Notes under the pieces: generated by a model
Told to the model about the DNA's origin: nothing
What the model saw: only the letters and a program-made list of their open reading frames with translations
Database searches by the model: none
Origin: Bacteroidota bacterium
Lineage (GTDB): Bacteria > Bacteroidota > Bacteroidia > JAFLBG01
Reading direction: 5' to 3'
DNA: 64,000 bases
Assembly: GCA_017303975.1 (NCBI GenBank)
Contig: JAFLBG010000002.1
Location: 62,001-126,000 of the forward strand
Made by a program: the position numbers and the translations under genes
Shown here: piece after piece, positions 26,654 through 54,458 of the stretch
Layout: each line of letters opens with the position of its first letter
How positions within the stretch are numbered: position 1 is the stretch's first letter

Positions 26654-26845
26654 TTACCTAATCACACTCACATGTCCCACATAATTGTGGCGTTTGCCAA
26701 AAATGTCTGTTAGTTGTACTTTCCAGACATACACATCCTGTTGAACAGTTTCTAAAATATTATTGACTCTGTCATTCCATGTTTGAGCTGTTTTAGGTAA
26801 ATAAAGATGTATTTTTCGAGTAACAACAAACGGCTTTAAAATCAT
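26654..26845 (-). pseudogene. Orphan 3' remnant of a T9SS type B CTD
   Basis: The frame encodes the last 45 or so residues of a type B sorting domain (from about TWNDRVNNILE to GHVSVIR) with no gene attached. By eye the DNA at 26657-26781 differs from the 3' end of the 1302-residue giant (41846 onwards) at about 11 of 125 positions, while similarity fades upstream of about 26817. It lies directly beyond the stop of the 935-residue type B protein, whose own CTD is intact and of a different lineage. A decayed gene end or a leftover from 3'-end replacement fits best. Confidence 0.75.
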
Positions 26846-31507: not shown

Positions 31508-33418
31508 TTATTGTTTAATTATTTTCTTCACTTCTTTATTCCCATTCGCAATAACTTCTATAAAATACATTCCTACTGGTAGTTCAGAGATGTTCACGTT
31601 TGTTTCTGTCTCGGTAAGTGCAATTGTTCTTATGGCAACTCCACTGTAGTTATAAATTGTAGCTGTAGTATTCTCTGTGCTCTCTACCTTAATTGTTACA
31701 AAATCGGTAGCAGGATTTGGATATACCGATACGTTCATTGAACTTTCTTCCAAACCTGTTTTATAGGCTACACTGTTGCTCTCTTCTGCTTGTTCTTCGG
31801 GTGATAAGGCACTGCCACTAAAAGAATATTTAATCATGGCAGGACGATACATTTCAAATGTTATGTTCGGATTTATCAAATTATTGGCTCCCGAATAAAG
31901 TAGGTTAAACGATCCGTGAAGTTCTATTGATACGAAAAGACTATTTTTATATGTAAGAATTTGCGCATTTTTATACATCAAATCTCCTGAGTAAGCATTT
32001 GCGTTATAAATAGGATTATTCCATTTAGTTACACCATTAGACGTACTGTATTTTATTAGATGTGGAATGGTTTTATTGCTGGCATATAATTCCGAATATA
32101 AAAGTATTGGATCTCCATCTGTATCTACTTCTAAATCGTTATTTGTTAAATAATCAGAAGTTGCATTATGCGATCTGCTCCAAATATAGGAGCCTGCTGG
32201 GCCGTATTTTGCAATGTATACTTTATTAGATACTATCTTATTGGTTGCTACAACATCTGGGTTTATATCGATTGGTGAATTTGTATAAGCACTTACAAAT
32301 ATATTACCAAGCTTATCAACTTCTACTTTTGCTGTTTCAAACAAATTATTGGTTACACCACCATCAATAGCTTTGGCCCAAACAAAATTTCCAATGCTAG
32401 TATATTTAGCAATACAAATATCTTCTAAACCATCACTTCCTTGCGTTGTAACATTTGAAACAGAATTAGATGGATCAAAGTCTATATAAGAGTTTGAACT
32501 TGCAGAACCTTTTGAAAAAATCCCACCTACTATAATGTTTGAGTATTTATCTAAATGAATAGAATTTAAACCAAGTTGATTTCCTTTTGCCTCAATTTTT
32601 CGAGCAAATAAAAATTGTAACGAGGAACTAAATTTCAATAGTACAGCATCATTACTTTTTACTTTTACAACACCAGAAGTTCCATTTGCAAAGTTTATAT
32701 TGTGTGAGCCATTACCTTCAATGTATCCTATATTTAATATCGCAAATAAATTACCGTATTTATCCGATTTAATATCGCTTAGATGTGCTTCACTTGGCAT
32801 AGTATTAAGAGGAAGATCTAACGTTTTGGCTATTGTACCATTTTCATTGAGCTTTAAAACATATAAGTTGGAGCGATTATATATTGATGAAAACTGTTTA
32901 CTTTCATACTTAAATTTTCCGGTATAAAGTCCAGCTACATACATTCCTTTCGAGTTACCAATATTGCAAATTGCATTTGCTTCTACAGCAGAATTATTAC
33001 CATTTATAACATACTTTTTCGACCAAAGGTATTTTCCTGCTGAGTTACTTGCGTATGAAGCCAAAAAGGGGGTACCCAAACTATAAGGTATTGAGCCCTC
33101 TTCCATAAAGTCGAAATCTACACCAGCTATATTAGGTTTGTCGAGACTAGGATTAATCAATGCTTTTGAGACATCCGGATTCACATCAATTGCATCTTTT
33201 GCGTATCCAATTCGTATCCACTGATTTGATACTGAATCGATAGCAGATTCACCCCAATACATGCTGACATGAGGTTGTGGTGCGTATCCATTATCGGATG
33301 CAACTTGAAATTGAAATGAATTTTTCCAATCTACAGTAGCTTGAGCATTTACATTTTGTTTAGTGTTTGCTGCCAATAGCAATGCTAGCGCAGCTAGTTT
33401 AATTGTTTGCTTTTTCAT
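31508..33418 (-). CDS. Type A array paralogue 1: SBBP/propeller-like secreted protein with T9SS type A CTD
   Basis: This 636-residue protein begins MKKQTIKLAALALLLAANTK, a signal peptide nearly identical in its two neighbours. The body (30-545) is a beta-propeller of SBBP-like repeats, each of the form (I/V)AKY...G...WA(K)... followed by D..GN(I/L)(F/Y)V. The type A CTD (about 555-636) has VYPNPATDFVTIKVES and ends EVKKIIKQ. The CTD is mosaic: its first half is identical in DNA to paralogue 3 (31638-31772) but its second half has diverged (AIRTIALTETETNVNISELPVG). The function of the propeller is unknown; surface attachment by T9SS is likely. Confidence 0.85.
   Translation of the reverse strand: MKKQTIKLAALALLLAANTKQNVNAQATVDWKNSFQFQVASDNGYAPQPHVSMYWGESAIDSVSNQWIRIGYAKDAIDVNPDVSKALINPSLDKPNIAGVDFDFMEEGSIPYSLGTPFLASYASNSAGKYLWSKKYVINGNNSAVEANAICNIGNSKGMYVAGLYTGKFKYESKQFSSIYNRSNLYVLKLNENGTIAKTLDLPLNTMPSEAHLSDIKSDKYGNLFAILNIGYIEGNGSHNINFANGTSGVVKVKSNDAVLLKFSSSLQFLFARKIEAKGNQLGLNSIHLDKYSNIIVGGIFSKGSASSNSYIDFDPSNSVSNVTTQGSDGLEDICIAKYTSIGNFVWAKAIDGGVTNNLFETAKVEVDKLGNIFVSAYTNSPIDINPDVVATNKIVSNKVYIAKYGPAGSYIWSRSHNATSDYLTNNDLEVDTDGDPILLYSELYASNKTIPHLIKYSTSNGVTKWNNPIYNANAYSGDLMYKNAQILTYKNSLFVSIELHGSFNLLYSGANNLINPNITFEMYRPAMIKYSFSGSALSPEEQAEESNSVAYKTGLEESSMNVSVYPNPATDFVTIKVESTENTTATIYNYSGVAIRTIALTETETNVNISELPVGMYFIEVIANGNKEVKKIIKQ
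31638..31772 (-). repeat. 135-bp CTD block identical to 35688-35822
   Basis: These 135 bases in the CTD of paralogue 1 are identical to 35688-35822 in paralogue 3 (offset 4050). The paralogue 2 counterpart differs over part of the block. Neighbouring coding sequence on both sides is diverged, as expected from a short gene-conversion tract. Confidence 0.8.
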
Positions 33419-33754
33419 GGTTTTGGTTTAAGTTTATAGTTGTTATAGCAAATTTTCATAAAGGCATAATTAGTATTCCAGTTCACCGGTTTATTAATGT
33501 TTTAACCTAACCCTAACTAACAAACCAGCAAACTGGCAAACTAATATTACTTATTGTTTAATTACTTTCTTTACTTCTTTATTCCCGTTCGACACCACCT
33601 CTACAAAGTACATTCCTGCTGGCAGTTCAGATATATTCACTTTTGTCTCTGTTTCGGCAAGAGCAATAGTTTTTACTGCTACTCCACTGTAGTTATAAAT
33701 TGTAGCTGTAGTATTCTCTGTGCTCTCTACCTTAATTGTTACAAAATCGGTAGC
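33356..33754 (-). repeat. 399-bp direct repeat, copy 1 (spans the paralogue 1/2 junction)
   Basis: This copy covers the signal-peptide codons of paralogue 1, all 132 intergenic bases and the last 200 bases (CTD) of paralogue 2. It is identical, as far as I can read, to 35363-35761, with a period of 2007 bases. Sequence on both sides diverges at once. Confidence 0.85.
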
Positions 33755-35425
33755 CGGATTAGGATAGATAGCCACATTGGTAGTAGCTTCTTCTACTACT
33801 GTTTTGTACGCTATGCTGTTGTTTTCTTCTGTTTGGTCTTCAGGTGATAGGGCGGAACCGGATAGAGTATATTTTATCATCACATCTTTATAATCTGTAA
33901 ATTGAGCTGCGGCAACACCAAATTGATTGTTAGAGAGAATTGCAGCTTCTTTATAATGCACTCCAACTGTCATTGCAGATAGTAAATAGAAACTATTTTT
34001 GTTTGCTAAAGCAGTAAGACCAAACATCCAAGTATCTTGATTTAAAGATCCAACTGTTGGAGATATTCTATTTTTCCAAATTTGTGCAAATGAGTTAGTA
34101 GTGCTATTAGTTTTGAGTTTAAACATATACAAGCTATTATCAAAAAACACTGTATAATAGATATTTCTCCTTGAGTCTATTGTAAAATCAAATTCGCCAG
34201 AAGTGCCAACAAGTAATGGCTTTTGTTCTTGATACATTCCTAGATAAGCACCTTGTTTATTATATTTTGCAACATACATAATAAGCATATTGGTTGCATT
34301 ATTAATACTAGTAGTGCCGTTATACTGAAAATACTCTCCTTGCTCAAGCAAACCTGCTATATAAATATTACCCATATTATCGACTTTCATTTTTGTTTTA
34401 TTAAACATGTACATAGGTTCGGTTTCAGAGTGTTTCAGTATGTTTGACCAGCTATAATTCATATTAGCAGAATATTTTATGAGAATTACAGATTGATTAT
34501 GCAATTCATAATTAACAGCTGGTAAACTTTGCATACCACTTTGTTTACTATCTAAATCAACAGTAAATGTGCCCCCGTCTTGAGAAGCCGATGCTTTTAG
34601 TATAATGTTTTTACTAGCATCAAAGCTCACATCCTGTATATGAAGACTCAAACTATTTGATACAATCTTATTGTGATTTAAATAATTTAAATTTTTATCG
34701 TATTTAACCATAAAAACTTCACCATCTAATGCTGTAACACTTTTTACTCCTGCTCCCGGATCTAAATCTAATTTGCACGATTCTGCTTCAAACACTACTA
34801 GCAGGTTCCCATTAGGATCAACGGCTATTTGGGAAGAATATATACGAGATTGATTTGTAACATTACCAATAGGCTTAATAACAGCAGATTTTAATAGAAT
34901 GCCTTTCTCATCTATTTTCATTAGTAAAATATCATCAGGATTACTTGAATGTAACGTGGGATTAAACGTACCATTAAATACTTTGGTTCCATAGGAAATT
35001 TTTCCCGAAAAACTAGCACTTACATATAACCCCTTTTGAGCGCCAATAGCTTCTATATCCTCAATGATAGGTGTTCCCCATTGATTGAACCCTTTTAGCT
35101 CATTCGCCCACTTGTATTTACCAGAGTTAGCATCGTAAGCAGCAATTGTATAGCCTTCTCTAATAGCTTTGCCGGCAGATGGGTCAACATCAAAATTTAT
35201 GATTGTAAAACTCTCATCGTACTCATCGCTACTATATCTGTAAATTTGATTACTTAGCGTATCAAGTACACCATTTGAAGCAACCCGCTCTTCTTCATTT
35301 TGAGTATAGGGAGTTGCATCAAATACATTTCTCCAAGCTACCGTAGCCTGTGCGTTTACATGTTGTTTAGTGTTTGCTGCCAATAGCAATGCTAGCGCAG
35401 CTAGTTTAATTGTTTGCTTTTTCAT
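33551..35425 (-). CDS. Type A array paralogue 2: SBBP/propeller-like secreted protein with T9SS type A CTD
   Basis: This 624-residue protein has the shared signal peptide MKKQTIKLAALALLLAANTK, a propeller body that is homologous to but clearly diverged from its neighbours (for example KYDKNLNYLNHNKIVSN, AKYNKQGAYLGMY), and a type A CTD from about 545. The CTD second half (VKTIALAETETKVNISELPAG, ending VKKVIKQ) is identical to that of paralogue 3, while the stretch before YPNPATD (VVEEATTNVAI) is its own. It is separated by 132 bases from each neighbour. Both intergenic regions are identical, so all three genes may share transcription and a downstream terminator. Confidence 0.85.
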   Translation of the reverse strand: MKKQTIKLAALALLLAANTKQHVNAQATVAWRNVFDATPYTQNEEERVASNGVLDTLSNQIYRYSSDEYDESFTIINFDVDPSAGKAIREGYTIAAYDANSGKYKWANELKGFNQWGTPIIEDIEAIGAQKGLYVSASFSGKISYGTKVFNGTFNPTLHSSNPDDILLMKIDEKGILLKSAVIKPIGNVTNQSRIYSSQIAVDPNGNLLVVFEAESCKLDLDPGAGVKSVTALDGEVFMVKYDKNLNYLNHNKIVSNSLSLHIQDVSFDASKNIILKASASQDGGTFTVDLDSKQSGMQSLPAVNYELHNQSVILIKYSANMNYSWSNILKHSETEPMYMFNKTKMKVDNMGNIYIAGLLEQGEYFQYNGTTSINNATNMLIMYVAKYNKQGAYLGMYQEQKPLLVGTSGEFDFTIDSRRNIYYTVFFDNSLYMFKLKTNSTTNSFAQIWKNRISPTVGSLNQDTWMFGLTALANKNSFYLLSAMTVGVHYKEAAILSNNQFGVAAAQFTDYKDVMIKYTLSGSALSPEDQTEENNSIAYKTVVEEATTNVAIYPNPATDFVTIKVESTENTTATIYNYSGVAVKTIALAETETKVNISELPAGMYFVEVVSNGNKEVKKVIKQ

Positions 35426-35761
35426 GGTTTTGGTTTAAGTTTATAGTTGTTATAGCAAATTTTCATAAAGGCATAATTAGTATTCCAGTTCACCGGTTTA
35501 TTAATGTTTTAACCTAACCCTAACTAACAAACCAGCAAACTGGCAAACTAATATTACTTATTGTTTAATTACTTTCTTTACTTCTTTATTCCCGTTCGAC
35601 ACCACCTCTACAAAGTACATTCCTGCTGGCAGTTCAGATATATTCACTTTTGTCTCTGTTTCGGCAAGAGCAATAGTTTTTACTGCTACTCCACTGTAGT
35701 TATAAATTGTAGCTGTAGTATTCTCTGTGCTCTCTACCTTAATTGTTACAAAATCGGTAGC
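35363..35761 (-). repeat. 399-bp direct repeat, copy 2 (spans the paralogue 2/3 junction)
   Basis: This copy covers the signal-peptide codons of paralogue 2, the 132-base intergenic region and the last 200 bases of paralogue 3. It is identical to 33356-33754. A third, partial match occurs at the start of paralogue 3 (around 37400-37455), where the coding part has several differences and the upstream part diverges after about 17 bases. Confidence 0.85.
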
Positions 35762-37435
35762 AGGATTTGGATATACCGATACGTTCATTGAACTTTCTTC
35801 CAAACCTGTTTTATAGGCTACATTATTGTTCTCTTCTATTTGCTCTTCTGGAGATAAAGCAGTACCACTTAAAGTGTACTTTATTACTACATCAGCAGCT
35901 CCTTTTGCTACAGAAAATTTAGACAATGGGTTATTAACTAAATCTTTGTACGTATTTAATGAATGCCCATCACCTAGATTAGCAAATAGATACACCTCAT
36001 TTTTATTTGCAATAATAGTTGGAAAAGATTGAATTGGCTTTGATGGATTAACATTAAAAATGCTGTTTTTCCAAATCCTGGTAATTGAGTTTCCTGCCGT
36101 ATTCAACTTCGACATATAAAGTCCATCATTCACTATGCAAGACAAATAGGCATTATTTTTTGAGTCTATAAAAAAACTTAATTCATCCACGGAACTTTCT
36201 GGACCCTTTATACCATATTTTGTTTCGGAATAAACTGTTTTTAAAGTACCTAATTTATCGTATTTAGCTACAAATAATTTCAGACTATCTTTCACTGGTC
36301 CGTGTAGAGTTTTAGTAGCCGACAAATCTATACTAGTGTTAAATCCTCCCCATGACTGATCACCTAAAATACCTGAAACAAATATATTACCTTGCTTATC
36401 AACATTTGTTCTAAGAAAAAAATCTTGTGTCAACGATAAATTAACTGTTCGTGTAAATGAATTAGTCCATAACAATTGCATACTAGGAGAGTATTTCGCA
36501 ATGTATCTTCCCGGTAGTCCGTTTAGCTTTTGTGCACCAGATTGTTTCGCATCAAAATCTACGCTAGTTTGACTTTGATTGAATCCATGACCAAAATCAA
36601 CTCCCGAAATAATAAAATTTTTGCTTCCATCAAAAAATATTCCATCAACAGAAAACTCTTCGCCATATGAAACTATTTTATTACTATTAATAAATTTCAA
36701 ATTTGAATCGTACTTAACAATTCCAACATCATTTGGCCCTAAAATCACTTGCTTAGTAGAAGAAAGTGGATCTATTAAATAACCATTTACTGCAGAAGTA
36801 TAATTTGTGAACACAATTGCTAACGATCCGTTTACATCAACAGCTGCAGTAGACATAGCAAAACTTCCAGGATACATCACATCTGGTTTCAGGAATAATG
36901 ATTTTATCAATGTTCCATTTTCATTAATCTTTAACACAAAAAGGTCGTCCACATCAATACCCTCAGTAATTGCACTAGGAGTATTTGTAGAAGTAAATGA
37001 AGTGTTTTGATATTTTATCTTGCCAGAAAAGCTTCCAATTATATATAAACCTTTCTGCTTCCCTATTGGAACTATCTTAACAATAGATATGCCCCCATAT
37101 TTACTTACCAAGGTTAAATTATTCACCCAATCAAGAGCGCCAGTATTAGATGAGTATGCAGCAACAACAGCACCACTTTTCATTACTTTTCCTACACCTG
37201 GATCAAAATCTTTCAAAGTTTTCTCATCAAATCCAAATCTGTAAATTTTATTAGACAACGTATCGATAACAGCCTCAGATGAGGATTGATAATCGTTAAC
37301 ACCCTCAAAATAAGTGAATGGACTATTATTCAATTGAGTTCGCCACGCAACAGATGCTTGCGCATTAATTTCATTTTTTGCTGAAGCCGCTAGTAGCAAT
37401 GCTAGTGCAGCCAATTTAATTGTTTGCTTTTTCAT
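35558..37435 (-). CDS. Type A array paralogue 3: SBBP/propeller-like secreted protein with T9SS type A CTD
   Basis: This 625-residue protein is the promoter-proximal member of the array. Its signal peptide has drifted (MKKQTIKLAALALLLAASAK), the body shares the propeller pattern (VAKYDKLGTLKTVYSE, AKYSPSMQLLWTNSF) with many substitutions relative to paralogues 1 and 2, and the CTD from about 545 combines the first half of paralogue 1 (GLEESSMNVSVYPNP) with the second half of paralogue 2. It is thus the sequence that links both mosaics, either as donor or as a recombination product. Upstream lies a 323-base gap that must hold the array promoter. Confidence 0.85.
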   Translation of the reverse strand: MKKQTIKLAALALLLAASAKNEINAQASVAWRTQLNNSPFTYFEGVNDYQSSSEAVIDTLSNKIYRFGFDEKTLKDFDPGVGKVMKSGAVVAAYSSNTGALDWVNNLTLVSKYGGISIVKIVPIGKQKGLYIIGSFSGKIKYQNTSFTSTNTPSAITEGIDVDDLFVLKINENGTLIKSLFLKPDVMYPGSFAMSTAAVDVNGSLAIVFTNYTSAVNGYLIDPLSSTKQVILGPNDVGIVKYDSNLKFINSNKIVSYGEEFSVDGIFFDGSKNFIISGVDFGHGFNQSQTSVDFDAKQSGAQKLNGLPGRYIAKYSPSMQLLWTNSFTRTVNLSLTQDFFLRTNVDKQGNIFVSGILGDQSWGGFNTSIDLSATKTLHGPVKDSLKLFVAKYDKLGTLKTVYSETKYGIKGPESSVDELSFFIDSKNNAYLSCIVNDGLYMSKLNTAGNSITRIWKNSIFNVNPSKPIQSFPTIIANKNEVYLFANLGDGHSLNTYKDLVNNPLSKFSVAKGAADVVIKYTLSGTALSPEEQIEENNNVAYKTGLEESSMNVSVYPNPATDFVTIKVESTENTTATIYNYSGVAVKTIALAETETKVNISELPAGMYFVEVVSNGNKEVKKVIKQ

Positions 37436-37758
37436 GGTTTTGGTTTAAGTTTATGCTGCAAATAAACTACCAAAAGGATATCTGTGTCAAAGCAAAAAAA
37501 AAGTAGATAAGCTTGAATTAATAGGGCAACTGCTTACAATAGTTTGAAAATCAGGAAAGTAAAAATTGATGATTAGATTTAATATCATTTTTCTTTTTTT
37601 CACAAACTCTATTTATTAACACTTGAATTGAATAAAATTAATGGGTGCACAAATACACGTGTTTTACTTAACATTCATTAAAATTCCGAGGGAGTATTTG
37701 GGGAGTTAAAAACACAATTTAACTCAAATTGAATATGAGAACTAGTTTATAGCGGTCA
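37436..37758. other. Gap upstream of the type A array
   Basis: These 323 AT-rich bases follow the 3' end of a type B gene and precede the type A array. The only recognisable item is CTTAAACCAAAACC just before the ATG on the - strand, shared by all three array genes and probably part of the leader/RBS. No ORF or hairpin is clear. Confidence 0.4.
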
Positions 37759-40104
37759 CTACCTAATGACACTTACGTGTCCTATATAGTTATGGTGTTT
37801 ACCAAAAATGTCTGTTAGTTGTACTTTCCATACATACACATCTTCTTGCACATTTTCTAATACATTATTTACTCTACCATTCCACGGAACCGCTGTTTCG
37901 GGAGAATTGGTTTTGTGTGTAGTATAGATCATTTGCCCCCAACGATCGTATATCCATAACTGGTATTCGGCTATACCTATTCCTGCTCCATTTAACAAAT
38001 CATTAATTCCATCGCTATTTGGAGTGAAAGAATTGGGAACATAAAAACCAAAATCTTCTGTGATTGTTAAACATTGCTCGGTTGTATCTTTACAAGTATG
38101 TGCATTTTCTACTACCAATAGCACACAAATCCTACCTGTATCATCAAACGTTTTAAACATATTCCAACTAACACTATCTGGCCCCTCCCCTTCAATACTC
38201 CACTTCCACTTACTTGCATCGGTAGATGTATTTTTAATTTCTACTATAGGGTTGGTTATAGATACTACGCTGGATGATAGGCTAAAGTCTGCATTAGGAG
38301 AATTGTACACAGTAATTTGATTGGGAATAACTGATGTTGATTGACACCCATTTATATCCTTTACAGATACAGTTGTACTATAAACTCCTGGTTCTGTATA
38401 ACAATGCATGGGAGTATATAATGTACTAGTGCCACCATCTCCAAAACTCCAAAAGGTATTTATTAGATTTTGAGTAGATGTACTTATGCTAAAAGTACTG
38501 CATAACAAGGGACAACCAGATGATACATCACTAGTATAGGTTACAACCGGTAGTGCATTTACTGTTATACTTTGCAATGCTGATGCAATACAACCATTTG
38601 CATCTGTTACTTCTAGGGTTACTATTTGAGTACTATCAGGGGCTATTGTAATTACAGAATTAGTACAAGCTCCATTATTCCAGTTATAAGAAAATGGGGC
38701 TGTTCCTCCTGTTGCACTTGAACCTATTACAATACTATCTCCTGCACATAAACTACTTGCGCCTGAAGTTGTTGCTATTAATACCAGCGGCTCTGATACC
38801 GTAAAGCTATCTACATCAAAACAACCCACTTGGTCAGTTACGGTAACTGAATAAACTCCATATTGCAAAAAAAACAATGAATCGTTCTCTTCGCTTGTCC
38901 CTAACCAAGAATAATCTATGACACCTGTTCCTCCTTGAGTTGAAGCCCATACCATTCCATCACTTCCACCATAGCAACTTACACTTTTTCCTGATATTGT
39001 TAATTGTGGCCCAGGAGTGTTGGTTATGGTATATACAGAAATTAGTTTACACAAAGCACTATCACTTACCTCTACCGCATATGTTCCAGATGACATACCC
39101 GTTTGGTTAGATCCAATTGCATTTGTAGACCAACTGTAATGATAATTGCCTACACCTCCGGTTGCAGATAAACTAATTGCGCCATCTGCTCTATTACAAA
39201 ATGTGGAAGTAACAGTTGATGTAATAGCTATTACAGGTGGTTGTGCTATTGCTACCGAATCAACAAATAGTGCACCAACAGAATCGGTTACTGTTACGTA
39301 ATATTTTCCTGCGCATAAGTTTGATATACTATCAGTTGTTTGTCCTCCGGGTTGCCATAAATAACTATAGGGTGCAACTCCTCCATACATCTTTATTTGT
39401 GCTGTTCCATCGCAACTTGAATTACAGGTTACATCGGTTTTCTTAATCTCTTTTTCTGATACGATGCAACTCATATTGTCAATCCCACAATATGTCCACC
39501 CAAGATAAGGATTGTAACTAGAAGAATTGCAAATTGCTTTTGGATTAATTACTTGACCATTATACCCCATGGTTAAATAACACCATGTTTGGGTAGGGGT
39601 AAACTTAAATTCAACACTCTTCCAACTTGTATTATTAATAATTGTGTCAAAAAGAAGTTCTGCCTGATGATTACAATTATTCCCCCCCCAAATGGCAAAC
39701 TTTGGAAACATACACGTATCCGCATTTTGCTGATAATAAAAAAGTAAGACTAGGTCGATAGTAAATTTATACTCTACACCTGCCTTCAAACACCCAGGAA
39801 CTGGCTGACAAACCCTTTCCCACCAACTTCCAGAATAATCGCCAGTTAGACCTTGAAATGTATTTCCTAATGATGCCGGCATAGTTATTCCCCAATGGCC
39901 AGGCAAAATATCTGGAGTAGCTCCATTAGCAGTATGCCACCCTGGAGCTGGACTATGCATTGTGGGAACTCCCTCAAAATCACTATTTGTTAAACATATT
40001 TTTTGAGCACATAGATTAGAAATGTTTAAATGATAAAACAAGATGAAAATTATTACTCGAGAACCTATTCTAGAAATCAATAATTGACTTTTAAATTTAT
40101 ACAT
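37759..40104 (-). CDS. Secreted jelly-roll/SprB-repeat/PKD protein with T9SS type B CTD
   Basis: This 781-residue protein has a signal region (about 12-34), then a cysteine-rich jelly-roll-like domain (35-215) starting KICLTNSDFEG and ending WTYCGIDNMSC, similar to carbohydrate-binding modules. Three to four SprB repeats follow (about 220-520, e.g. DVTCNSSCDGTAQIKMYGG), then a PKD domain with FWSFGDGGTS, and a type B CTD (about 690-781) with PNSFTPNSDGINDL and IYDRWGQ. The end, DIFGKHHNYIGHVSVIR, groups with the 1302-residue giant and the orphan remnant. It is divergent from the first helical-protein gene, sharing a 231-base promoter region. Confidence 0.88.
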   Translation of the reverse strand: MYKFKSQLLISRIGSRVIIFILFYHLNISNLCAQKICLTNSDFEGVPTMHSPAPGWHTANGATPDILPGHWGITMPASLGNTFQGLTGDYSGSWWERVCQPVPGCLKAGVEYKFTIDLVLLFYYQQNADTCMFPKFAIWGGNNCNHQAELLFDTIINNTSWKSVEFKFTPTQTWCYLTMGYNGQVINPKAICNSSSYNPYLGWTYCGIDNMSCIVSEKEIKKTDVTCNSSCDGTAQIKMYGGVAPYSYLWQPGGQTTDSISNLCAGKYYVTVTDSVGALFVDSVAIAQPPVIAITSTVTSTFCNRADGAISLSATGGVGNYHYSWSTNAIGSNQTGMSSGTYAVEVSDSALCKLISVYTITNTPGPQLTISGKSVSCYGGSDGMVWASTQGGTGVIDYSWLGTSEENDSLFFLQYGVYSVTVTDQVGCFDVDSFTVSEPLVLIATTSGASSLCAGDSIVIGSSATGGTAPFSYNWNNGACTNSVITIAPDSTQIVTLEVTDANGCIASALQSITVNALPVVTYTSDVSSGCPLLCSTFSISTSTQNLINTFWSFGDGGTSTLYTPMHCYTEPGVYSTTVSVKDINGCQSTSVIPNQITVYNSPNADFSLSSSVVSITNPIVEIKNTSTDASKWKWSIEGEGPDSVSWNMFKTFDDTGRICVLLVVENAHTCKDTTEQCLTITEDFGFYVPNSFTPNSDGINDLLNGAGIGIAEYQLWIYDRWGQMIYTTHKTNSPETAVPWNGRVNNVLENVQEDVYVWKVQLTDIFGKHHNYIGHVSVIR

Positions 40105-40335: not shown

Positions 40336-41850
40336 ATGGCAAACATAAACAATGACTTATTTGAATTAATAAAATCTCTTACTAATGCAGAGATTAAACA
40401 ATTCTATTTTTTTTGTAAAAATCAGGGGCATAAAGAGGAAAAACAGTATTTAGTTTTGTTTGAAGAGCTTAGAAAAGCAAGTTTTTATGATGAAGAACAT
40501 ACAAAAGAAAAACTAAAAAAAGTAATTAAAAATTATGCTGTTTTAAAAAACTACCTATTTGACCTCATCATCAAAAGCTTTATGCTTGATTTTACCAGTA
40601 GCAATCCAATATTTGAGTTAAACAAATCTTTAGTAGAAATAGAAATATTAAGAGGCAAAGGGCTTTTAAAAAGAAGTAATCATTTAATAGAATTGACAAA
40701 AAAGAAAGCACATGAGTGCGAAGAATATCAGATTGTGATTCAACTTATAGACCAGCAACTGAAAAATATATTTTTCAAAGGGCAGTTTAATAAAACAACA
40801 TATTCTAAATTAATTGAAGAAAGAAGAACAGCAAATGACTTTTTATTTAGAAAAAACAAATTACATATACTCGTAAATGATTTGATTTTCTTAGAAAACA
40901 CTACATCATTCATTGCCCCTAATTTCACAAAAAGAATAAATGAAATAAAAGAAGAATTACTAGCACTCCTAAATCAGCAGCCTAACCCTGTTTTTGTTGA
41001 TATCATTTGCCTAGAAAACCTCTCCTTGATAGAGGCAAGAACAGAAGCTTTTGAAGAAGCAATAAAACACATAAGTGAATTACAAAAGAAATTCAAACAA
41101 CTTTCAGAAAAGCTTTTTTTATTTAAACAGTTTCATTACAAATACTTCAACTCTATTTTGAATAAATTTTTTTATGAAATTCGCCTCAAAAAAATAGAGC
41201 AAGCTACAGTCTCCATCCATGAATTGGAGTCTACTGGTAGTTATTACAATAATAAACCCGAAAGCAATGCCATTTTATCTGACTTAACATTTGCAAAATG
41301 CTTTTACATGCTTTCTACTGGGAAATTTAATACGTACGAACTAAATGAATTTGACTCGCTAAATACCCCTAATAAAGTTTCTGCATCAATGCAACAAAAC
41401 AGATCGTTTTTAATATATGCAACTTTATTATTATTCAAAAAAGAACTCAAAAAACTAACGCGTATTTTTTTTCAAATTGAAACAAGTGATACTCAAGTTT
41501 TCTCTGGTCAATTTTCAGGTGGCACATTATTGATATACGCTACTCTACAATTTGAAAAAGGGGATTACGAAGAGTTACTCAGATTAAAAAAACTAGCATT
41601 AAAAAACACAATCACTAATGAGCAAAGTGTACTCTACTGGATTGATAGTTTATTACAGCTCCTAAATGAGGGAATAAACGCTCTACCTATCAAACTAATG
41701 CAATTATCTCAAGCGATTAATAGCAATAACAACAAGACTTTATTGTCACAATATTTTTTAACGGACTGGCTTGAAAGCAAAATTCAGAACAGACCTATTG
41801 AGGAAATATTATCACAAAAAATATTAAAAGATAAAAACAGCTCTACCTAA
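40336..41850 (+). CDS. Uncharacterised helical cytoplasmic protein, paralogue 1
   Basis: This 504-residue protein lacks a signal peptide and membrane segments and is almost all alpha-helical, with a spacing that suggests TPR-like or HAT-like repeats. The N-terminus has DLFELIKSLTNAEIKQFYFF, then YLVLFEELRK, then IKNYAVLKNYLFDLIIKSF. This pattern recurs in the second + strand gene of the island and, as I recall, in uncharacterised Bacteroidota proteins; no function is known to me. It is one of two genes facing the other way in a 37-kb block of - strand secreted-protein genes. The last 8 bases overlap the 3' end of the 1302-residue giant. A regulatory or chaperone-like role for surface proteins is speculative. 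Confidence 0.75.
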   Translation: MANINNDLFELIKSLTNAEIKQFYFFCKNQGHKEEKQYLVLFEELRKASFYDEEHTKEKLKKVIKNYAVLKNYLFDLIIKSFMLDFTSSNPIFELNKSLVEIEILRGKGLLKRSNHLIELTKKKAHECEEYQIVIQLIDQQLKNIFFKGQFNKTTYSKLIEERRTANDFLFRKNKLHILVNDLIFLENTTSFIAPNFTKRINEIKEELLALLNQQPNPVFVDIICLENLSLIEARTEAFEEAIKHISELQKKFKQLSEKLFLFKQFHYKYFNSILNKFFYEIRLKKIEQATVSIHELESTGSYYNNKPESNAILSDLTFAKCFYMLSTGKFNTYELNEFDSLNTPNKVSASMQQNRSFLIYATLLLFKKELKKLTRIFFQIETSDTQVFSGQFSGGTLLIYATLQFEKGDYEELLRLKKLALKNTITNEQSVLYWIDSLLQLLNEGINALPIKLMQLSQAINSNNNKTLLSQYFLTDWLESKIQNRPIEEILSQKILKDKNSST

Positions 41851-44800
41851 TCACACTTACATGTCCAACGTAGTTATGGTGTTTACCAAAAATGTCTGTT
41901 AGTTGTACTTTCCAGACATACACATCCTGTTGTACTATTTCTAAAATATTATTGACTCTGCCATTCCATGGAACGGCCGTTTCCGGTGAATATGTTTTGT
42001 GTGTGGTATAAAGCATCTGTCCCCAACGATTGTAAATCCATAACTGGTATTCGGCTATGCCAATTCCCCAACCATTGAACAAATCATTAATTCCATCGCT
42101 ATTCGGAGTGAATGAGTTTGGAATATAAAACGCAAAATTAGGATTAACAGTTATACATTGAGAAGTGCTATCAATGCAACCTTTCTGGGATATTGCAATC
42201 AATTTGGTACAAAAGTAGCCTGTATCGGGATAGCTGTACGAAGGATTAACAATTGTACTTGTTGATTGAGAATTATCGCCAAAATTCCACAGGTACGATA
42301 CCGCATTGGTACTTTCGTTGGAATAATTAACATTTGCATTTAACACATCTGTGCTATACGATGATGGCGTAAATGCCGCTTGTGGTAATCCATACACAGT
42401 TATAGAGTTAGTGCTGCTGATGTTATTTGAACAACCATTGTTATCTATCACCGTAACTGAATACGAGTAGCTGCCCGAATTGGCAAAGCATTGTGTAGCA
42501 TTGCTCATAGTGCTTTGCGAGCCATCGCTAAAATACCATTGTACTTGTTGAGTATTATCTGTAGTGTTGGCAAGCTTTACACACAAAGGTGCGCAGCCTG
42601 CTGTATCTTGTGCTGTATAACTTACCTGCGGCAAAGCATGCCAAGTGAGCGTACTGGAATAACTGGCAGTACAATTCCTACTATCTGTTACTGTTACTTG
42701 ATATGCTGTAGTTGTATTTACTAGCGTAGAAACGGTATTGGTAATAGAACTAAATGGTGTCCACTGGTAAGCAAAGCCACCATTGCCTCCTGTTGGTACA
42801 GCCGTTAAATTGCTTGTTCGTCCGGCACAAGCAGCGCTATCACCTGTTGTTGTTATAATTAATGCGGGTGGCTCTGTAATACTTATTGTTGCAGTATTTG
42901 TACAACCATTGCCATCTGCTACGGTTACGCTATACGTATTAGCGCTAACATTAGAAAGTGTGTTTGTAGTTTCTCCGTTACTCCAATTGTAAGAATAGGG
43001 GGCAAATGTATTTTGTCCTGCCACAGCAGCACTTCCATCACTCAGCGAATTACACGATACGGGAACAATAGTTGTTGTAGCAATACTTGGTAGCGCATTT
43101 ACAGTAAGTGTGTAGGGTAATGTATAAGGACAGCCTTGTGTGGTGTTGCCGCTTACTGTATACGTAACACTAGTGGGAGGATTGGCAATAACTGTTGTAC
43201 TTGTGGCAGTATTTAAATTACTCGCAGGACTCCAGTTGGCAGTACTTACACCCTTAACTTCTAGTATTGATAGGCTTCCTGTACAAAGTACACTATCTCC
43301 ACTAATAGTAACATTATTATTCGGAATGGAAACGGTTACACTTTTGAAAACACTGTCGGTATTGCAAACAGAGCTAATAATTAGCTTAACTTGATAGGTG
43401 CCACTACTACTGTAGCTTACCTGTGGGTTAAAAGAAGTAGACGAACTTGGCGTGCCTCCTTGAAAACTCCATACAAAATTAGTACCACTCGGATCGCAGT
43501 AATGGTGTGGCGTATAGTTCACTTGCACCGAACACCCTTGCGGAACCACTGTGGTATCAAAGGTTACATCGCTGTACGTATCGTCACCACAGTTTAAGGC
43601 GCAAATTCGGCCAATAACCAAATCTTCAAAGCCGCCAGCATGTGTGGGTTGAAAGGAGTTTGCTGTTGTAGGATAACCACCTTGACCTGCATTTACAAAA
43701 TAAATAAATCCGTTCTTTACTTTAATATCGCCACGCACATCTCCGTTATCCCAGTCATCTTCATCCGGACCACCTAAGTAAGTAGAGCATAAATAATCGC
43801 CTGTAAGTCCATCAAATTTTGCTATGTAATGATCTTCTATGCCTCCAAATGTATTCTGATAACCACAAGAGCTAGTAGTTATACTGGCTTCAAAATCTTC
43901 GTACTCGCCAAATATATAGGGATTGCCGTTAGCATCAAGAGTTAAAAATGGGAAAAGTTCTCTATCAGATGTTCCAAACGCTGTGGACCACAGAATAGAG
44001 CCATTAGCATTTAACTTAACTAAATACAAGTCTGTCCCTCCTTGAAAAGGATTATTAGTTGGAGGGGAACACGTATAAGCGCCATCTGCAGTTGTTGAAA
44101 CGACTATATCATTTGAGGCATTACACTGAACATCGGGAAAGTTTCCTGGTATCATAGTAGACCAAACAATATTTCCGATAGCATCCATCTTTACACAAAA
44201 ACTTTCGAAAACGTTTGTACTGCAACCAAATGGATTGATGGTTGTTGGATATAATCCTAATGGTTGTCCTACTAATACAATATTATTCAATGCATCTGCT
44301 GCTACTGCCTTTGATTCAGAACCCACAACAGCACTATAAAAATTTGCAAATACAATATTTCCCAACTTGTCGAATTTAGAAACGAATGCATTCCCTTTGG
44401 TATTTCCGGGATTTATGCTTTGAGTTGAAGATATGGGTAAACTATCCATAGCTGTACCACAAAAAACAATGTTATCATTTTGATCGATGGCAAGATCAGA
44501 AGAATAACCATCAATGTATGCCATAGCTCCTTGCCCTGAAATAAAAGCACGATAATAAGAGCTCCAATTAAGAATACCGGCAGAGTTTAATTGAAATAAA
44601 AAATAACAAAATACACCCATAGGATTAGAGCTTTGAAAAGCTCCTAAAGTGACAGGTAAGTTTAGAGAATTCGTAATGCCAAGTATAGATAGATTGTTTT
44701 GACTGTCGTGAGCAATTGCTTTTGACACTTCAAACTTGCTACCCCCAAAGTAGGTTGCCCAATTTCTACTACCTGTATTTGAAAAACTTGCAACCACAAT

Positions 44801-48920: not shown

Positions 48921-50441
48921 ATGCGCAAAGGAGAAGACGATTTGTTTCAATTAATAAAATCACTCACAATTCCTGAGCGAAAACAATTTTATTCGTTTGC
49001 AAATAAATATGATGGAGATGAGAGCTCCGAAAAAACATACATGCTTTTATTTGAAGCAATAGATAAAAGCAAAAATTATAATGAATCTGATCTAAAGAAA
49101 AAATTTGCAGACACAATAAAAAACTTTGCCTTTACAAAAAAATATTTGTTTCAATTAATCATAAAAACCCTTAAATCTTTACCACTAGAAAATGATATTG
49201 ATGCAGAATTAGAGGACATGATTCATACCACAAAAATTTTGCGGAACAAAAAATTATATCACAAGTGCTTAAAGAACTTGTACAAATGCAAAGAACTTGC
49301 GTATGCTCATGAAAAATATAGCTTCCTAGAGCGCATTTTGGCATTGGAAATAAGCCTACACATTCACTCCATAGGAATTTACAGAAGCAATCATATCGAG
49401 TTAACCGAAGAGTTTCAAGATGTATTTAATAAAAACAACTTTCAACGAGAAAAAAGCTTTATTCATCAAAAATTAATAGCACTATATAGTTCGGACGGGC
49501 TGAAGAATGAAAAGAAGAAAGAGATAGATAGTCTAATTTCGCGCTGTGTAGTTTTAGAAGCAGAGTTGACAATCCCAATATCAGTGAGATTAGATTTGAT
49601 TACCATTATAATGGGATATTATTCAAGACTATATTACGAAACTATCGTTTTCGAATATTGCAACCGGTGGTGTAATTTATACGAGAGAAATAACGTAAAG
49701 GAAATTAAAGACAATATTCTTGATAGAAGATATTTACTTTATTTAATGAATGCAGCAGAAGGGGCTAGCCTTGCAAAAGATTTTGCAAAATACAACAACT
49801 TATTAAGCAAAATAGAGGTGGTAATTCACGAATATAATTCTGTCACCAACGATAATTTCATTCAAAGTAAATTACTTGGCATTAAATTGCTTCACTCCAT
49901 TGACTCAGCCTCCATCTCAACTTTTAATTTTGATAGTATCGAGGCATTTTTAGCTAAAGAAAAGAGTTATACTTCTACCTATGTAAAATTGTATTTGTAT
50001 CTGCAATCATACTTTCTCCTTTGTAAAAACTACAAAAAATTTGCAGCATACATGGTAAATTTCGAACACCAAAAGTTAGACAATTATATACTCAGCGAGT
50101 CTATTTTGCGATTCTACCACATACTCTGTTTTAATTATTACTACATCAAAGAGAATTATACTGAAGCGTCAAGAATTGCGAAGAATGCAATTGAAGACCC
50201 AAAAATAAAACTAGAACAATTTGACATCTTATGGTACAATTCCCTTATTGCAGTGCTAAATAGTGGCAAAGTGAATGAAAGTGAATCTCTGAAAAAACTT
50301 CTTAATGATTTAAGCGGAGTGAATGTTTTCGAGAACTCTTTCGGCCCCTACGCAAAAATATGGCTAGAAAGTATCATCAGAAATACAGATGTAGAAATTA
50401 TTATCCGCGAACAAAACAATCAACTATCTTCTAATCTCTAA
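48921..50441 (+). CDS. Uncharacterised helical cytoplasmic protein, paralogue 2
   Basis: From the ATG at 48921 (506 residues; the frame opens at a TTG at 48909) it begins MRKGEDDLFQLIKSLTIPERKQFY, matching paralogue 1 in DLF(E/Q)LIKSLT, KQFY, (Y/L)LFE, and KxxLFxLIIK. It has no signal peptide, membrane segment or known catalytic motif, and helical repeats continue to the end. The last 18 bases overlap the 3' end of the 1297-residue type B giant on the other strand. That is the same tail-to-tail geometry as paralogue 1, so the pair 'helical gene + giant' occurs twice in 9 kb. Function unknown. Confidence 0.75.
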   Translation: MRKGEDDLFQLIKSLTIPERKQFYSFANKYDGDESSEKTYMLLFEAIDKSKNYNESDLKKKFADTIKNFAFTKKYLFQLIIKTLKSLPLENDIDAELEDMIHTTKILRNKKLYHKCLKNLYKCKELAYAHEKYSFLERILALEISLHIHSIGIYRSNHIELTEEFQDVFNKNNFQREKSFIHQKLIALYSSDGLKNEKKKEIDSLISRCVVLEAELTIPISVRLDLITIIMGYYSRLYYETIVFEYCNRWCNLYERNNVKEIKDNILDRRYLLYLMNAAEGASLAKDFAKYNNLLSKIEVVIHEYNSVTNDNFIQSKLLGIKLLHSIDSASISTFNFDSIEAFLAKEKSYTSTYVKLYLYLQSYFLLCKNYKKFAAYMVNFEHQKLDNYILSESILRFYHILCFNYYYIKENYTEASRIAKNAIEDPKIKLEQFDILWYNSLIAVLNSGKVNESESLKKLLNDLSGVNVFENSFGPYAKIWLESIIRNTDVEIIIREQNNQLSSNL

Positions 50442-53400
50442 ATATCCTTTGTACGGATCCATACCTTCAATGATTAACACATAGAAATAGGTTCCCGAAA
50501 CAACCTTTCCGTTACCAATACTCAAGCCCTTATTGGGAGTTCCATCCCAATCGTTCTTATATGGTTTTGCCTCGTACACTTTATCTCCCCAACGATTAAA
50601 GATTTCCAATGTATTATTTCCATTTCCAAACCTGCTTAAATTTTTTAGCACATAGGTATCGTTTATGCCATCGCCATCGGGGCTAAATCCATTTGGAATA
50701 GACAACACCAACTCGGATAACACTTTTAAATACACTTTAGCAGTATCGCATTTCAACGTACAATACAAATCACATAACTGATAAGCAATAGAATCTTCGC
50801 CCGAAAATCCGGAGTTTGGCTTGTATTCAAAATATCCATTTGCATTGGAAACAATTGTGCCATTCTTTGGATTATCAATAATTACAATGTTATTGGCATT
50901 ATTTCCGTTGTCGTTTCCAAACACATACACAGATTTAACTTCGTTAAAAAGCGTACTATCATAATCGTTTGTTGCAAGTACAACACCTGTAGATAATACC
51001 GAAATAGGGAACTGATAAGAAGCGCTACAGTTATTAGCATCCTCAACAGTAACAGTGTATGTACCGGACGTAAGCCCTGTAAAATTACCGTTTGAATTTG
51101 AAATAGAACCCGGGAACAGCTTATAAACCAATCCCCCACTGCCACCTGAGGCAACCACGCTTGCAGCTCCATCTGCAACTCCTGAACAACTTTCATCAGT
51201 TACAGATCCGCTAGATGCCAACAACTGTGATGGTTGAGAAATTGAAACAGTTAAGGTGTTTAACGAATTACAGTTATTCCCATCGCTAACCACTACAGAA
51301 TATGTTCCGGAAGATAAGCCTGTAAAAGCACCTGAACTATTCGTAGTTGAGCCCGGATTTAATTGAAACGTATAAGAGCCTGTTCCGCCCGTTGCAGAAG
51401 CGGTTATTTGACCTGTAGAATTTCCAAAACAAGAAAGATTATTACTAGCACTTAATGTAAGAGTAATTGGCGCAGGTTGCGTAATTACAATCTGTCCTCC
51501 GGAAGATACAGCTATCGCAGAACAACTATTTGCATCAGCCACAACAATAGTGTACGTACCTGCTGACAGATTAGAAAACACACCGTTCGTATTCGAACTG
51601 TTAATTGGGAGTAATGTGTAGGTATATCCGGGCACGCCACCATTTGCAGCAACCACCAAGGATGCATTAGACGAACCGGAGCAAGTCAAAGAGCCTGTCA
51701 TTGTTACCGTTGCACTAACAGCTGCCGAAGGCTCTGTAATAGATACTACTGAAGTAGAACTACAAAGATTTGCATCTGTTATTGTTACCGTATAAGTACC
51801 TGCAGCAACTCCTGTTATATTTTGAGTTGTTTGAGAATTACTCCACAAATAAGTAAATGGCCCAGTACCACCAGCAATAGAAGCTGATGCAGAACCAGTA
51901 GTAGTTCCAAAACAACTTATATTATTCAAAACACTTGCAGATGCAACACCTCCTGTGGTGTTGGCAAGGGTAGTAGTAGCAATAGCACTACAAGCATTTG
52001 CATCGGTAACTGTAATAGAATATATACCGGACGAAAGTGCCGTAGCAGTTTGCGTATTGATTAAATTACTCCACAAATAAGTATATGCTCCTGTACCTCC
52101 TGCAAAATTAGCTGTTGCAGAACCAGTACTACTATTACAACCTGATGGGATAGTAGAAATACTTCCGGTAAGTGTTGCCAATGGTTGAGTTATAGATACA
52201 GTACGTGTTACAGTACACCCTTTAGTATCAGTAGTTGTAACGGTAATTATACCCGATGTAAGATTATTTACAAAAGATGTTGTAGCTGCATTACTCCAAG
52301 AATACAAATAACCACCATTACCTCCGCTACTTGCAACAGAGGCTGTTCCGCTAGACCCTCCAAAACACAATACATTTGTGGAAGAAACAGTTGACGACAA
52401 TGCAGATGGTTGTGTAACGGTATATGTCTTTACTATAGTACAATTATTTGCATCTCGAACAGTAACAGAATAATTACCGGCTGCTAATGTAGATATACTA
52501 TTGGACGTACCGTAACCAGTTCCCCAGTTATATTGGTAATTGGCAACACCCCCGGCAACCGAAGCAATGGCAGCACCATTGGCTTGTCCATTGCAAACTA
52601 CTGAAGTGGAAGATATAGTAGAAGTTATAACAGCGGGTTCGGTAACAGTATAGGTTTGTGCAGTTTTGCAGTTATAACTACAAACTCGTAAGGATAAGTC
52701 ATCTATTACAAAATCGTTTCCTACGGCAGTAGCATTATTATCACGCAATGATAATGTACAAGTAGTTATTGCCCCGGAATTAAAAGTTATGCTGTACTTT
52801 GTCCATGTATTAGACAACGCAGGTAAGGTTTGTGCCGAACCAACATCAACCCCATTAAGCTGTAGCCTAACAACAGCAGGATTTCCAGAATATGTACTCG
52901 CTGCCCAAAAACTAAAACTGTAATTGGTATTAGAAGCTAGAATCGCATTCTGAATCCAAAATCTATTTGTGCTAACAGACGAGCCGTTAACCACTAATAA
53001 ATTTCCGTTCCCTGTAGTATGATCTGTTAAAGCAGTCCACACGCTGTGTACTTTATCTGGATCTGTCTCAACAATTATAGAAGTTTCATCCAAGTCATTA
53101 CTCATATCAAATGTTGCATAATTATAATCGGAAGTAAAGCCTGTGTTACCACTAGTAAAACTTCTATTAATAAGCAATTCGGGACCAATAGGCACACACA
53201 CATTATCATTTACATTAACAGTATAATTGCCCGCAGATAAAGTATTGATGAAATTTGTAGTTGCATTTGAAGGCGACCATAGATAAGAATAAGGTGTGGT
53301 GCCGCCTGTAACACTAGTTGTTATAGCACCTGTAGAATTGCCATTGCACAACACATTAGTAACACTTCCATTTATAGCCACAACCGATGGCTGCGAAATG

Positions 53401-54317
53401 TTTACAACAACAGACTTTGTACAAAGTGGGTCTGCCTCAGCGCTTCGAGCAGAAACAGTATATGTGCCAGGGGTTAGATTAGCAAATGTATTGGATGTGC
53501 CCCAAACTCCATTATTTAAGGCATATTGATGATTTTGATTCCCTCCCCAAGACATGGCAGTAATTTGTCCATCTCCACTACCATTGCAAAACAATGGCTC
53601 AGTAGTTGCAGATTCATTAAACAGTTTTATATCTCCATAGTTATAGGTCTTTAGAACTCTTGTAGCGCCAGTTGCGGTTGCAGTTCCTGTCCAAACACCA
53701 AAATTTTTCTGATTCGAAAAATCAAAATCATAATCATAATACGCTATCAAATTTGTTTCCATCCAATAGGTAGGAAGAGTGTTCATATTCGCCCTTATTT
53801 GAGTTTGCGTTCTAGCAGCATTCCAAATTCTCACTTCATCAATATATCCATAAAAAAGCTCATCCGGGGCACCGTAATTCCATCGACTCCCAATAGAAGT
53901 GTTGTGTGCATTCTGAACCATTGTGCCCGAACAACTCATTGTGCCAGTCAAACAACCATTTGTATAATAACACAATACTGTTCCATCGTATGTTGCTGCA
54001 ACGTGTGTAGGAGTGTTAAGGGGAATAGATACCGAGTTCACAACACTTTTATATCCATTTGTAGTTGTAACTTCAAAAGAACCAGGACGTAATAAATAAT
54101 TTACATCTGCAGGGGAGTGATGTTTTGAAACGATATTATTAGCAGATGAATTGTTTGTCACAGTAATAATTGCCTCTACAGTTATTTTATCCCCAGAAAC
54201 ATCCAAGTCGCCCAAATTAACTGCTCCCCCATTTGTATTTAGCCAACTATTTTGAGTGAAAGCGGAAAAAGTAAAAAGTAAAAAAAATGTTGAAACAATC
54301 AGATTATTGAAACGCAT
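50424..54317 (-). CDS. Giant LamG/SprB-repeat protein with T9SS type B CTD
   Basis: This 1297-residue protein has a signal peptide (1-21), a LamG/concanavalin-like domain (about 24-185, with FYGYIDEVRIWNAARTQ), about nine SprB repeats (236-1095), a bacterial Ig domain of the 'YxPxxGFxGxDSxxYxxCD' type (about 1105-1205) and a type B CTD (about 1205-1297: PNGFSPDGDGINDTYV, IFNRWGDKVY, YKGYLEIRR). The second SprB repeat is interrupted at residue 377 by a jelly-roll-like domain of about 174 residues and resumes at 551. Predicted to be a long surface adhesin. It lies 141 bases downstream of the next giant and overlaps helical paralogue 2 at its 3' end. Confidence 0.9.
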   Translation of the reverse strand: MRFNNLIVSTFFLLFTFSAFTQNSWLNTNGGAVNLGDLDVSGDKITVEAIITVTNNSSANNIVSKHHSPADVNYLLRPGSFEVTTTNGYKSVVNSVSIPLNTPTHVAATYDGTVLCYYTNGCLTGTMSCSGTMVQNAHNTSIGSRWNYGAPDELFYGYIDEVRIWNAARTQTQIRANMNTLPTYWMETNLIAYYDYDFDFSNQKNFGVWTGTATATGATRVLKTYNYGDIKLFNESATTEPLFCNGSGDGQITAMSWGGNQNHQYALNNGVWGTSNTFANLTPGTYTVSARSAEADPLCTKSVVVNISQPSVVAINGSVTNVLCNGNSTGAITTSVTGGTTPYSYLWSPSNATTNFINTLSAGNYTVNVNDNVCVPIGPELLINRSFTSGNTGFTSDYNYATFDMSNDLDETSIIVETDPDKVHSVWTALTDHTTGNGNLLVVNGSSVSTNRFWIQNAILASNTNYSFSFWAASTYSGNPAVVRLQLNGVDVGSAQTLPALSNTWTKYSITFNSGAITTCTLSLRDNNATAVGNDFVIDDLSLRVCSYNCKTAQTYTVTEPAVITSTISSTSVVCNGQANGAAIASVAGGVANYQYNWGTGYGTSNSISTLAAGNYSVTVRDANNCTIVKTYTVTQPSALSSTVSSTNVLCFGGSSGTASVASSGGNGGYLYSWSNAATTSFVNNLTSGIITVTTTDTKGCTVTRTVSITQPLATLTGSISTIPSGCNSSTGSATANFAGGTGAYTYLWSNLINTQTATALSSGIYSITVTDANACSAIATTTLANTTGGVASASVLNNISCFGTTTGSASASIAGGTGPFTYLWSNSQTTQNITGVAAGTYTVTITDANLCSSTSVVSITEPSAAVSATVTMTGSLTCSGSSNASLVVAANGGVPGYTYTLLPINSSNTNGVFSNLSAGTYTIVVADANSCSAIAVSSGGQIVITQPAPITLTLSASNNLSCFGNSTGQITASATGGTGSYTFQLNPGSTTNSSGAFTGLSSGTYSVVVSDGNNCNSLNTLTVSISQPSQLLASSGSVTDESCSGVADGAASVVASGGSGGLVYKLFPGSISNSNGNFTGLTSGTYTVTVEDANNCSASYQFPISVLSTGVVLATNDYDSTLFNEVKSVYVFGNDNGNNANNIVIIDNPKNGTIVSNANGYFEYKPNSGFSGEDSIAYQLCDLYCTLKCDTAKVYLKVLSELVLSIPNGFSPDGDGINDTYVLKNLSRFGNGNNTLEIFNRWGDKVYEAKPYKNDWDGTPNKGLSIGNGKVVSGTYFYVLIIEGMDPYKGYLEIRR

Positions 54318-54458
54318 AAGCCTAAGAGTAGTTTATAAATTGACACTATAAAGCTACGCTTTAACACACTTTTATTCAAACCAATGTTGAAATAAAAGAA
54401 TATATCTGAAATGCTAAGAAATAATCAATTTGGCACTTACGTGCTGAAAAACAACCAC

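Follow-up and report, generated by a model that had tools for sequence, protein, structure and literature searches.

The array of three genes described here raises the question of how neighbouring genes with diverged bodies come to be joined by DNA that is identical base for base. In the window (the whole 64,000-nucleotide stretch of DNA that was analysed), genes C, B and A are located on the minus strand and transcribed in this order. Gene C (35558..37435), which is transcribed first, encodes a protein of 625 aa composed of a putative signal peptide, a beta-propeller-like body and a type A sorting domain at residues 554-625 (TIGR04183, 4e-15; PF18962, 3.3e-15). Gene B (33551..35425; 624 aa) consists of the same parts, and gene A (31508..33418; 636 aa) has the same layout with a body from a different subfamily. 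All three proteins exceed the curated cut-offs of both sorting-domain models, with 51-56 bits for TIGR04183 (cut-off 23) and 52-57 for PF18962 (cut-off 27); judged by this domain they are T9SS type A cargo, and their export is predicted. Their N-terminus follows the signal-peptide-like pattern MKKQTIKLAALALLLAA...NAQ, as assessed by eye.

The bodies of A, B and C are 25-35% identical at the amino acid level. Gene A gives a local match to the SBBP propeller lipoprotein model NF047494, far under the cut-off of that model, and gene B a marginal SBBP repeat match. The AlphaFold2 model of B is all-beta, with a beta-propeller-like body followed by a beta-sandwich tail; it is only of moderate quality (mean pLDDT 67) because a three-sequence alignment served as input. 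The PDB structures that match this model best are mainly beta-propellers. As modelled, the middle part of the three proteins is thus beta-propeller-like.

The repeat and the bodies between its copies

The preliminary description had reported that the two junctions of the array are identical, with a period of 2007, and that the repeat covers the sorting-domain (CTD) codons of one gene, the whole intergenic region and the signal-peptide codons of the next. A base-by-base alignment bears this out in each respect: 33356-33754 equals 35363-35761 at 399/399 positions, the neighbouring base differs on both sides so that the match cannot be extended, and 1608 bases separate the copies. Each copy, delimited by the exact match and the gene borders, opens with the last 204 nt of one gene (67 codons and the stop codon), continues through the 132-nt intergenic region and closes with the first 21 codons (63 nt) of the gene that follows. 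Copy 1, at the C/B junction (35363..35761, minus strand), comprises the CTD end of gene C (35558-35761), the intergenic DNA (35426-35557) and the signal-peptide codons of gene B (35363-35425). Copy 2, at the B/A junction (33356..33754, minus strand), comprises the CTD end of gene B (33551-33754), the intergenic DNA (33419-33550) and the signal-peptide codons of gene A (33356-33418). In the whole 3.4-Mb genome, the full 399 bp was found at these two sites only. At the tract edges, identity steps from 100% to about 65-80%, and the flanks on both sides are still homologous, the gene ends being 62-82% identical; outside the gene ends, same-offset identity is at background (about 19-40% per 100 nt).

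As the source genome is an assembly of 70 contigs and an exact repeat of 399 bp is longer than common short reads, similar junctions might have been collapsed to one consensus that was placed twice, or a misjoin might have reused the repeat. In particular, an assembler merging near-identical copies could have sharpened the exact identity. However, both copies are in frame, the genes are intact and the flanks are homologous to the extent given above. Moreover, the wider pattern is independent of exact identity, because partly diverged tracts are found in four other clusters and in other genomes, one of them assembled into 9 contigs. An assembly artefact is therefore improbable.

The bodies between the copies are much older than the ends. 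Residues shared by the B and C bodies use the same codon in 75 of 158 cases, and 77.7 are expected from codon usage alone; the corresponding counts are 57/100 for A-B (50.7 expected) and 56/125 for A-C (59.2 expected). With counts so near to expectation, the synonymous sites of the bodies are saturated. In the CTD part of the repeat, 66/66 codons are identical. The divergence of the bodies that had been proposed at the outset is thus real, and the equal synonymous identity of bodies and repeat, named then as the result that would speak against it, was not found. Since 132 of the identical bases are non-coding, selection on protein is not the reason for the identity. Together, the identical non-coding DNA, the synonymous saturation in the bodies and the sharp identity steps at the edges strongly support the recent recombination suggested earlier.

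If the array had arisen by recent tandem duplication and the bodies had then diverged fast under selection, with the ends simply conserved, the tandem order of the genes, their membership in one family and their single orientation would be accounted for. However, with synonymous saturation in the bodies next to identical CTD codons and 132 unchanged non-coding bases, such a history could survive only if the local mutation rate in the body were extreme. Furthermore, the body of A is closest to that of a gene on another contig (G000:C6:9684-11522; 40% aa identity), versus 25-28% to B or C. The saturated synonymous sites rule this candidate out for practical purposes, and it is regarded as highly improbable.

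The alignment of the whole array, which had been recommended in the preliminary description, confirms the B=C repeat and adds a separate exact tract shared by A and C. This tract of 135 nt covers the CTD start and the preceding residues, and it is contained in the CTD end of gene A (31508..31824, minus strand), which is 88.6% identical to that of C over 317 nt. In B and C, the common sequence consists of the CTD end and all that follows up to the next signal peptide. The A=C and B=C tracts overlap by 74 nt, a segment that all three genes share, and in each of the pairs A-B, A-C and B-C identical polymorphic columns occur in non-random runs (run test, p about 1e-5). Two tracts with different partners and endpoints require at least two events. 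At the outer borders of the array, a leader of about 20 nt upstream of gene C (37436..37455, minus strand) matches the repeat and the remaining upstream region is unrelated; downstream of A, past the stop codon, no resemblance to the repeat was found. This is as expected if only complete junctions exchange.

Contents of the junctions

The intergenic module (33419..33550, minus strand), which is exactly identical to the second one (35426..35557, minus strand), includes a hairpin, a TTTG promoter-like site and a leader. The hairpin, long and imperfect, directly follows the stop codon (core stem about 21 bp, MFE -33.1 kcal/mol, z -3.6). The TTTG site is located 34 nt ahead of the ATG, and the A/C-rich leader AACTTAAACCAAAACC is also found before gene C. 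Elements of the same kinds accompany the rest of the propeller family, which has about 14 full-length members in the genome, arranged in small clusters on other contigs besides the array in the window. Each member is trailed by a hairpin within about 110 nt (e.g., at 33470-33540 of the window); these are long in most cases and differ in sequence. In some members the hairpin is a classic U-tract terminator, in others an imperfect A/T-rich palindrome that lacks a clear T run. In most members, a TTTG promoter-like site is also located about 25-40 nt ahead of the start, and a leader motif like AACTTAACCAA, which is perhaps a shared 5' UTR signal, lies between this site and the ATG. With a hairpin after and a promoter-like site before them, the genes probably each possess their own terminator and promoter, and the repeat would then be a complete stop-to-start frame, as far as roles can be read from such elements.

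A known structured RNA in the junction was rejected, as no Rfam match was obtained between 31000 and 38000. The possibility that a hairpin-triggered break starts conversion has no specific support, as hairpins are present in all members, including lone ones.

Because the module contains plausible functional parts (CTD, hairpin, promoter-like site, leader and signal peptide), purifying selection might be thought to hold the junctions identical without recombination, by acting on a regulatory and export module that they have in common. However, the identity takes in all synonymous codons, and paralogues of the same layout differ in their hairpins, leaders and CTDs; therefore, the exact sequence is not required. 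Conservation by selection alone is accordingly disfavoured and has next to no probability.

Position and ancestry in the propeller family

The genome encodes about 150 type A sorting domains. The members of the propeller family that were read are full-length open frames, except for one that is cut by the end of contig C5 (G000:C5:139399-139855; a 152-aa open frame); the copy number in the genome is therefore a minimum. Among the 14 dispersed paralogues, CTD DNA identity averages 0.81 within clusters versus 0.63 between clusters, and body identity is 0.30 versus 0.28. Permutation of the cluster labels, which were hand-picked and span up to about 25 kb (C7), gives p 5e-5 for CTD identity and 1e-4 when the array in the window is left out. 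CTD and body identity are uncorrelated across clusters (r 0.03). Moreover, when the trees of bodies and of CTDs are compared for 13 members in reciprocal AU tests, each is rejected by the other (p 9e-51 and 2e-42); C37, a lone member with no same-cluster pair, was excluded from the trees because its CTD was misaligned (about 42% to all). The body tree places A beside C6a with full support, unites B and C with C7a and C5a, and joins C6b and C5b to C2x and C2y. The CTD groups are A+B+C, C6a+C6b, C7a+C7b and C2x+C2y. Along the proteins, the closest likeness changes from the body relative to the neighbour close to where the signal peptide ends and where the CTD begins.

The four other clusters contain partly diverged tracts, with CTD identity of 75-93%. 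In C5 and C7, homogenised sequence continues about 100 nt past the stop codon into 3' non-coding DNA, so that homogenisation beyond the stop codon is seen in three clusters, the array in the window being the third. In C5, the first part of the post-stop stretch, which makes up most of it, is unique to that pair, and the last part also matches short dispersed repeats. Thus, in this family and in this genome, the tag follows chromosomal position and the body follows ancestry. Tandem CTD genes outside the propeller family in the same genome mostly show no homogenisation. A further gene adjacent to C7b (G000:C7:29461-31884; L011:2461-4884) encodes a protein of 807 aa whose body is not related to the propeller family; its CTD DNA is 78-79% identical to that of two propeller genes on the same contig (78% for C7b).

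Likeness depends on location, tract ends are sharp and lie in homologous sequence, and the tracts reach non-coding DNA, which is the signature of gene conversion or concerted evolution. The best explanation, with a probability of roughly 80%, is that neighbouring junctions of an old tandem array have repeatedly undergone gene conversion in short tracts. The repeat would then be the footprint of a recent non-reciprocal homologous recombination between two intergenic junctions. The stretch that runs from the sorting domain through the terminator-like hairpin, the promoter-like site and the leader to the signal peptide would be alike enough to pair, so that short tracts of one junction, with lengths of 135 to 399 bp in the cases seen, could be overwritten by the other. 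The bodies, being too diverged to pair, would be spared, and the tracts would stop where homology stops. As conversion would be repeated and local, tags would come to cluster by position and bodies by ancestry. The process is presumed to be RecA-type conversion. Homogenisation would for the most part follow incidentally from local homology and in doing so keep export and expression signals uniform, and this reading is favoured over a dedicated diversification system.

The same pattern could also arise if incoming or dispersed propeller bodies were swapped into the locus via the conserved ends, the ends being local and the bodies visitors. Body subfamilies are indeed scattered over clusters while tags are local, likeness switches close to where the signal peptide ends and the CTD begins, as expected of exchange, and in another genome (L079) a 1710-aa body unrelated to its neighbours is located between homologous junctions. 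However, the closest body pairs in the genome are only 35-56% identical at the amino acid level, none exceeding 56%, and no recent body movement is seen. Moreover, two overlapping tracts with different partners are better explained by conversion of the ends than by one insertion, and single-crossover insertion alone would not make both flanking junctions identical. Such cassette exchange is therefore considered unlikely. The preliminary description had gone further and seen in constant export signals around a variable body a design that could allow cassette exchange, deletion or amplification. The arrangement itself is real and genome-wide; its role as a design or driver of such events is hypothetical, as the tracts show homogenised ends only and every body is distinct.

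Other genomes, known systems and further repeats

A genome search for relatives found none closer than the same class and no strain of the same species or genus, and a scan of contigs yielded a single distant CTD match, in Chryseobacterium. Five genomes from other Bacteroidota families were sampled for adjacent type A genes; the sample is not random, as the genomes were chosen partly on hints of tandem genes. Most adjacent pairs in the five genomes have background CTD identity only (about 0.5-0.65). Clear homogenisation is seen in L079, L069, L093 and L071. In L079, an array in the 9-contig genome, junctions are 80% identical over 524 nt, comprising the CTD, the whole intergenic region and the first codons, and the bodies are unrelated. 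The array (L079:2235-14727) comprises five type A genes with nearly constant gaps (286-318 nt) and homologous junctions between unrelated bodies. In L069, CTDs are 87.5% identical over 280 nt with unrelated bodies, and in L093, identity is 90% over 305 nt and 37% in the bodies. L071 (92% over 222 nt) is weaker evidence than L069 and L079 because its bodies are partly related (53%). The pattern thus recurs in other Bacteroidota families and is far from universal. As tandem CTD genes outside the propeller family, here and in other genomes, are mostly without homogenisation, the process is not general to T9SS cargo.

Conserved ends provide homology for recombination around variable centres in Neisseria pilE/pilS, Anaplasma msp2 and Borrelia vlsE, in which variable segments move from silent copies into one expression site. 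In contrast, all copies in the array described here are intact and have their own promoter-like sites, and it is the constant end that moves. Among the family members of this genome, neither silent donors with a single expression site nor recent body movement was found, and the array does not qualify as an antigenic-variation system.

A closer likeness is provided by Helicobacter pylori babA/babB and homA/homB, in which 3' segments are homogenised within a genome, an effect attributed to RecA-dependent intragenomic recombination (review PMC3960876). There, as here, surface-protein paralogues have homogenised 3' ends and are diverged in other parts; the likeness is one of process and not of gene homology. 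However, most of the H. pylori loci lie apart from each other, and they are documented to switch adhesin expression or binding, whereas in the present array the tract is centred on the junctions of neighbouring genes, a type IX sorting domain forms the homogenised end and phenotype switching is not known. The gingipain and hagA genes of Porphyromonas gingivalis also encode T9SS cargo with a conserved CTD and, in the portion of the source drawn on here, undergo allelic exchange and domain rearrangement as recombining surface genes (PMC5266723). According to the same portion, what P. gingivalis exchanges between strains and loci are catalytic and adhesin domains (PMC5266723). Homogenisation between neighbours that takes in CTD, intergenic DNA and signal peptide, as in the array, is not described for P. 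gingivalis in that portion (PMC5266723).

The type A sorting domain family (TIGR04183/PF18962), which is present in all three proteins of the window, is defined by protein sequence. A literature search that covered few subscription papers returned no description of neighbour-wise homogenisation of sorting domain and intergenic DNA, nor of local concerted evolution of TIGR04183/PF18962 DNA.

The finding bears on how unrelated passengers gain and keep a shared T9SS tag, since a very large number of T9SS cargo proteins have one C-terminal tag in common. The tags of the propeller family evolve by location and not by passenger; therefore, the history of the tag is separate from that of the cargo, and tag sequences are unfit for inferring cargo relationships inside such arrays. 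The junctions are also candidate sites for array expansion, loss or passenger exchange. It is a tentative and rather doubtful extension that Bacteroidota with large T9SS cargo repertoires might maintain, in tandem arrays, a location-specific recombining frame, built from sorting domain, terminator, promoter, leader and signal peptide, into which unrelated passengers are exchanged; this would be an open, RecA-driven cassette system for surface proteins centred on intergenic junctions.

Other repeats are found in the window. Two type B (CHU_C) cargo genes, located 4 kb apart on the minus strand and encoding proteins of 781 and 1305 aa, are 85.5% identical at the DNA level over their last 296 nt (37759-38054 and 41843-42138), and the whole proteins are 43% identical over 482 aa; this pair possibly reflects the same local homogenisation for type B tags. 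An orphan type B sorting-domain fragment (26655-26781, minus strand) is located in a gap without a long ORF and is 91% identical to a gene end at 41844-41970; it may be what remains of a lost gene, or it may have been left by stray conversion. Finally, a direct repeat of about 430 nt with 71% identity is found at 50413-54878, between neighbouring large minus-strand genes (50424-54317 and 54459-58595), and further partial copies of it occur at 46032 and 58606.
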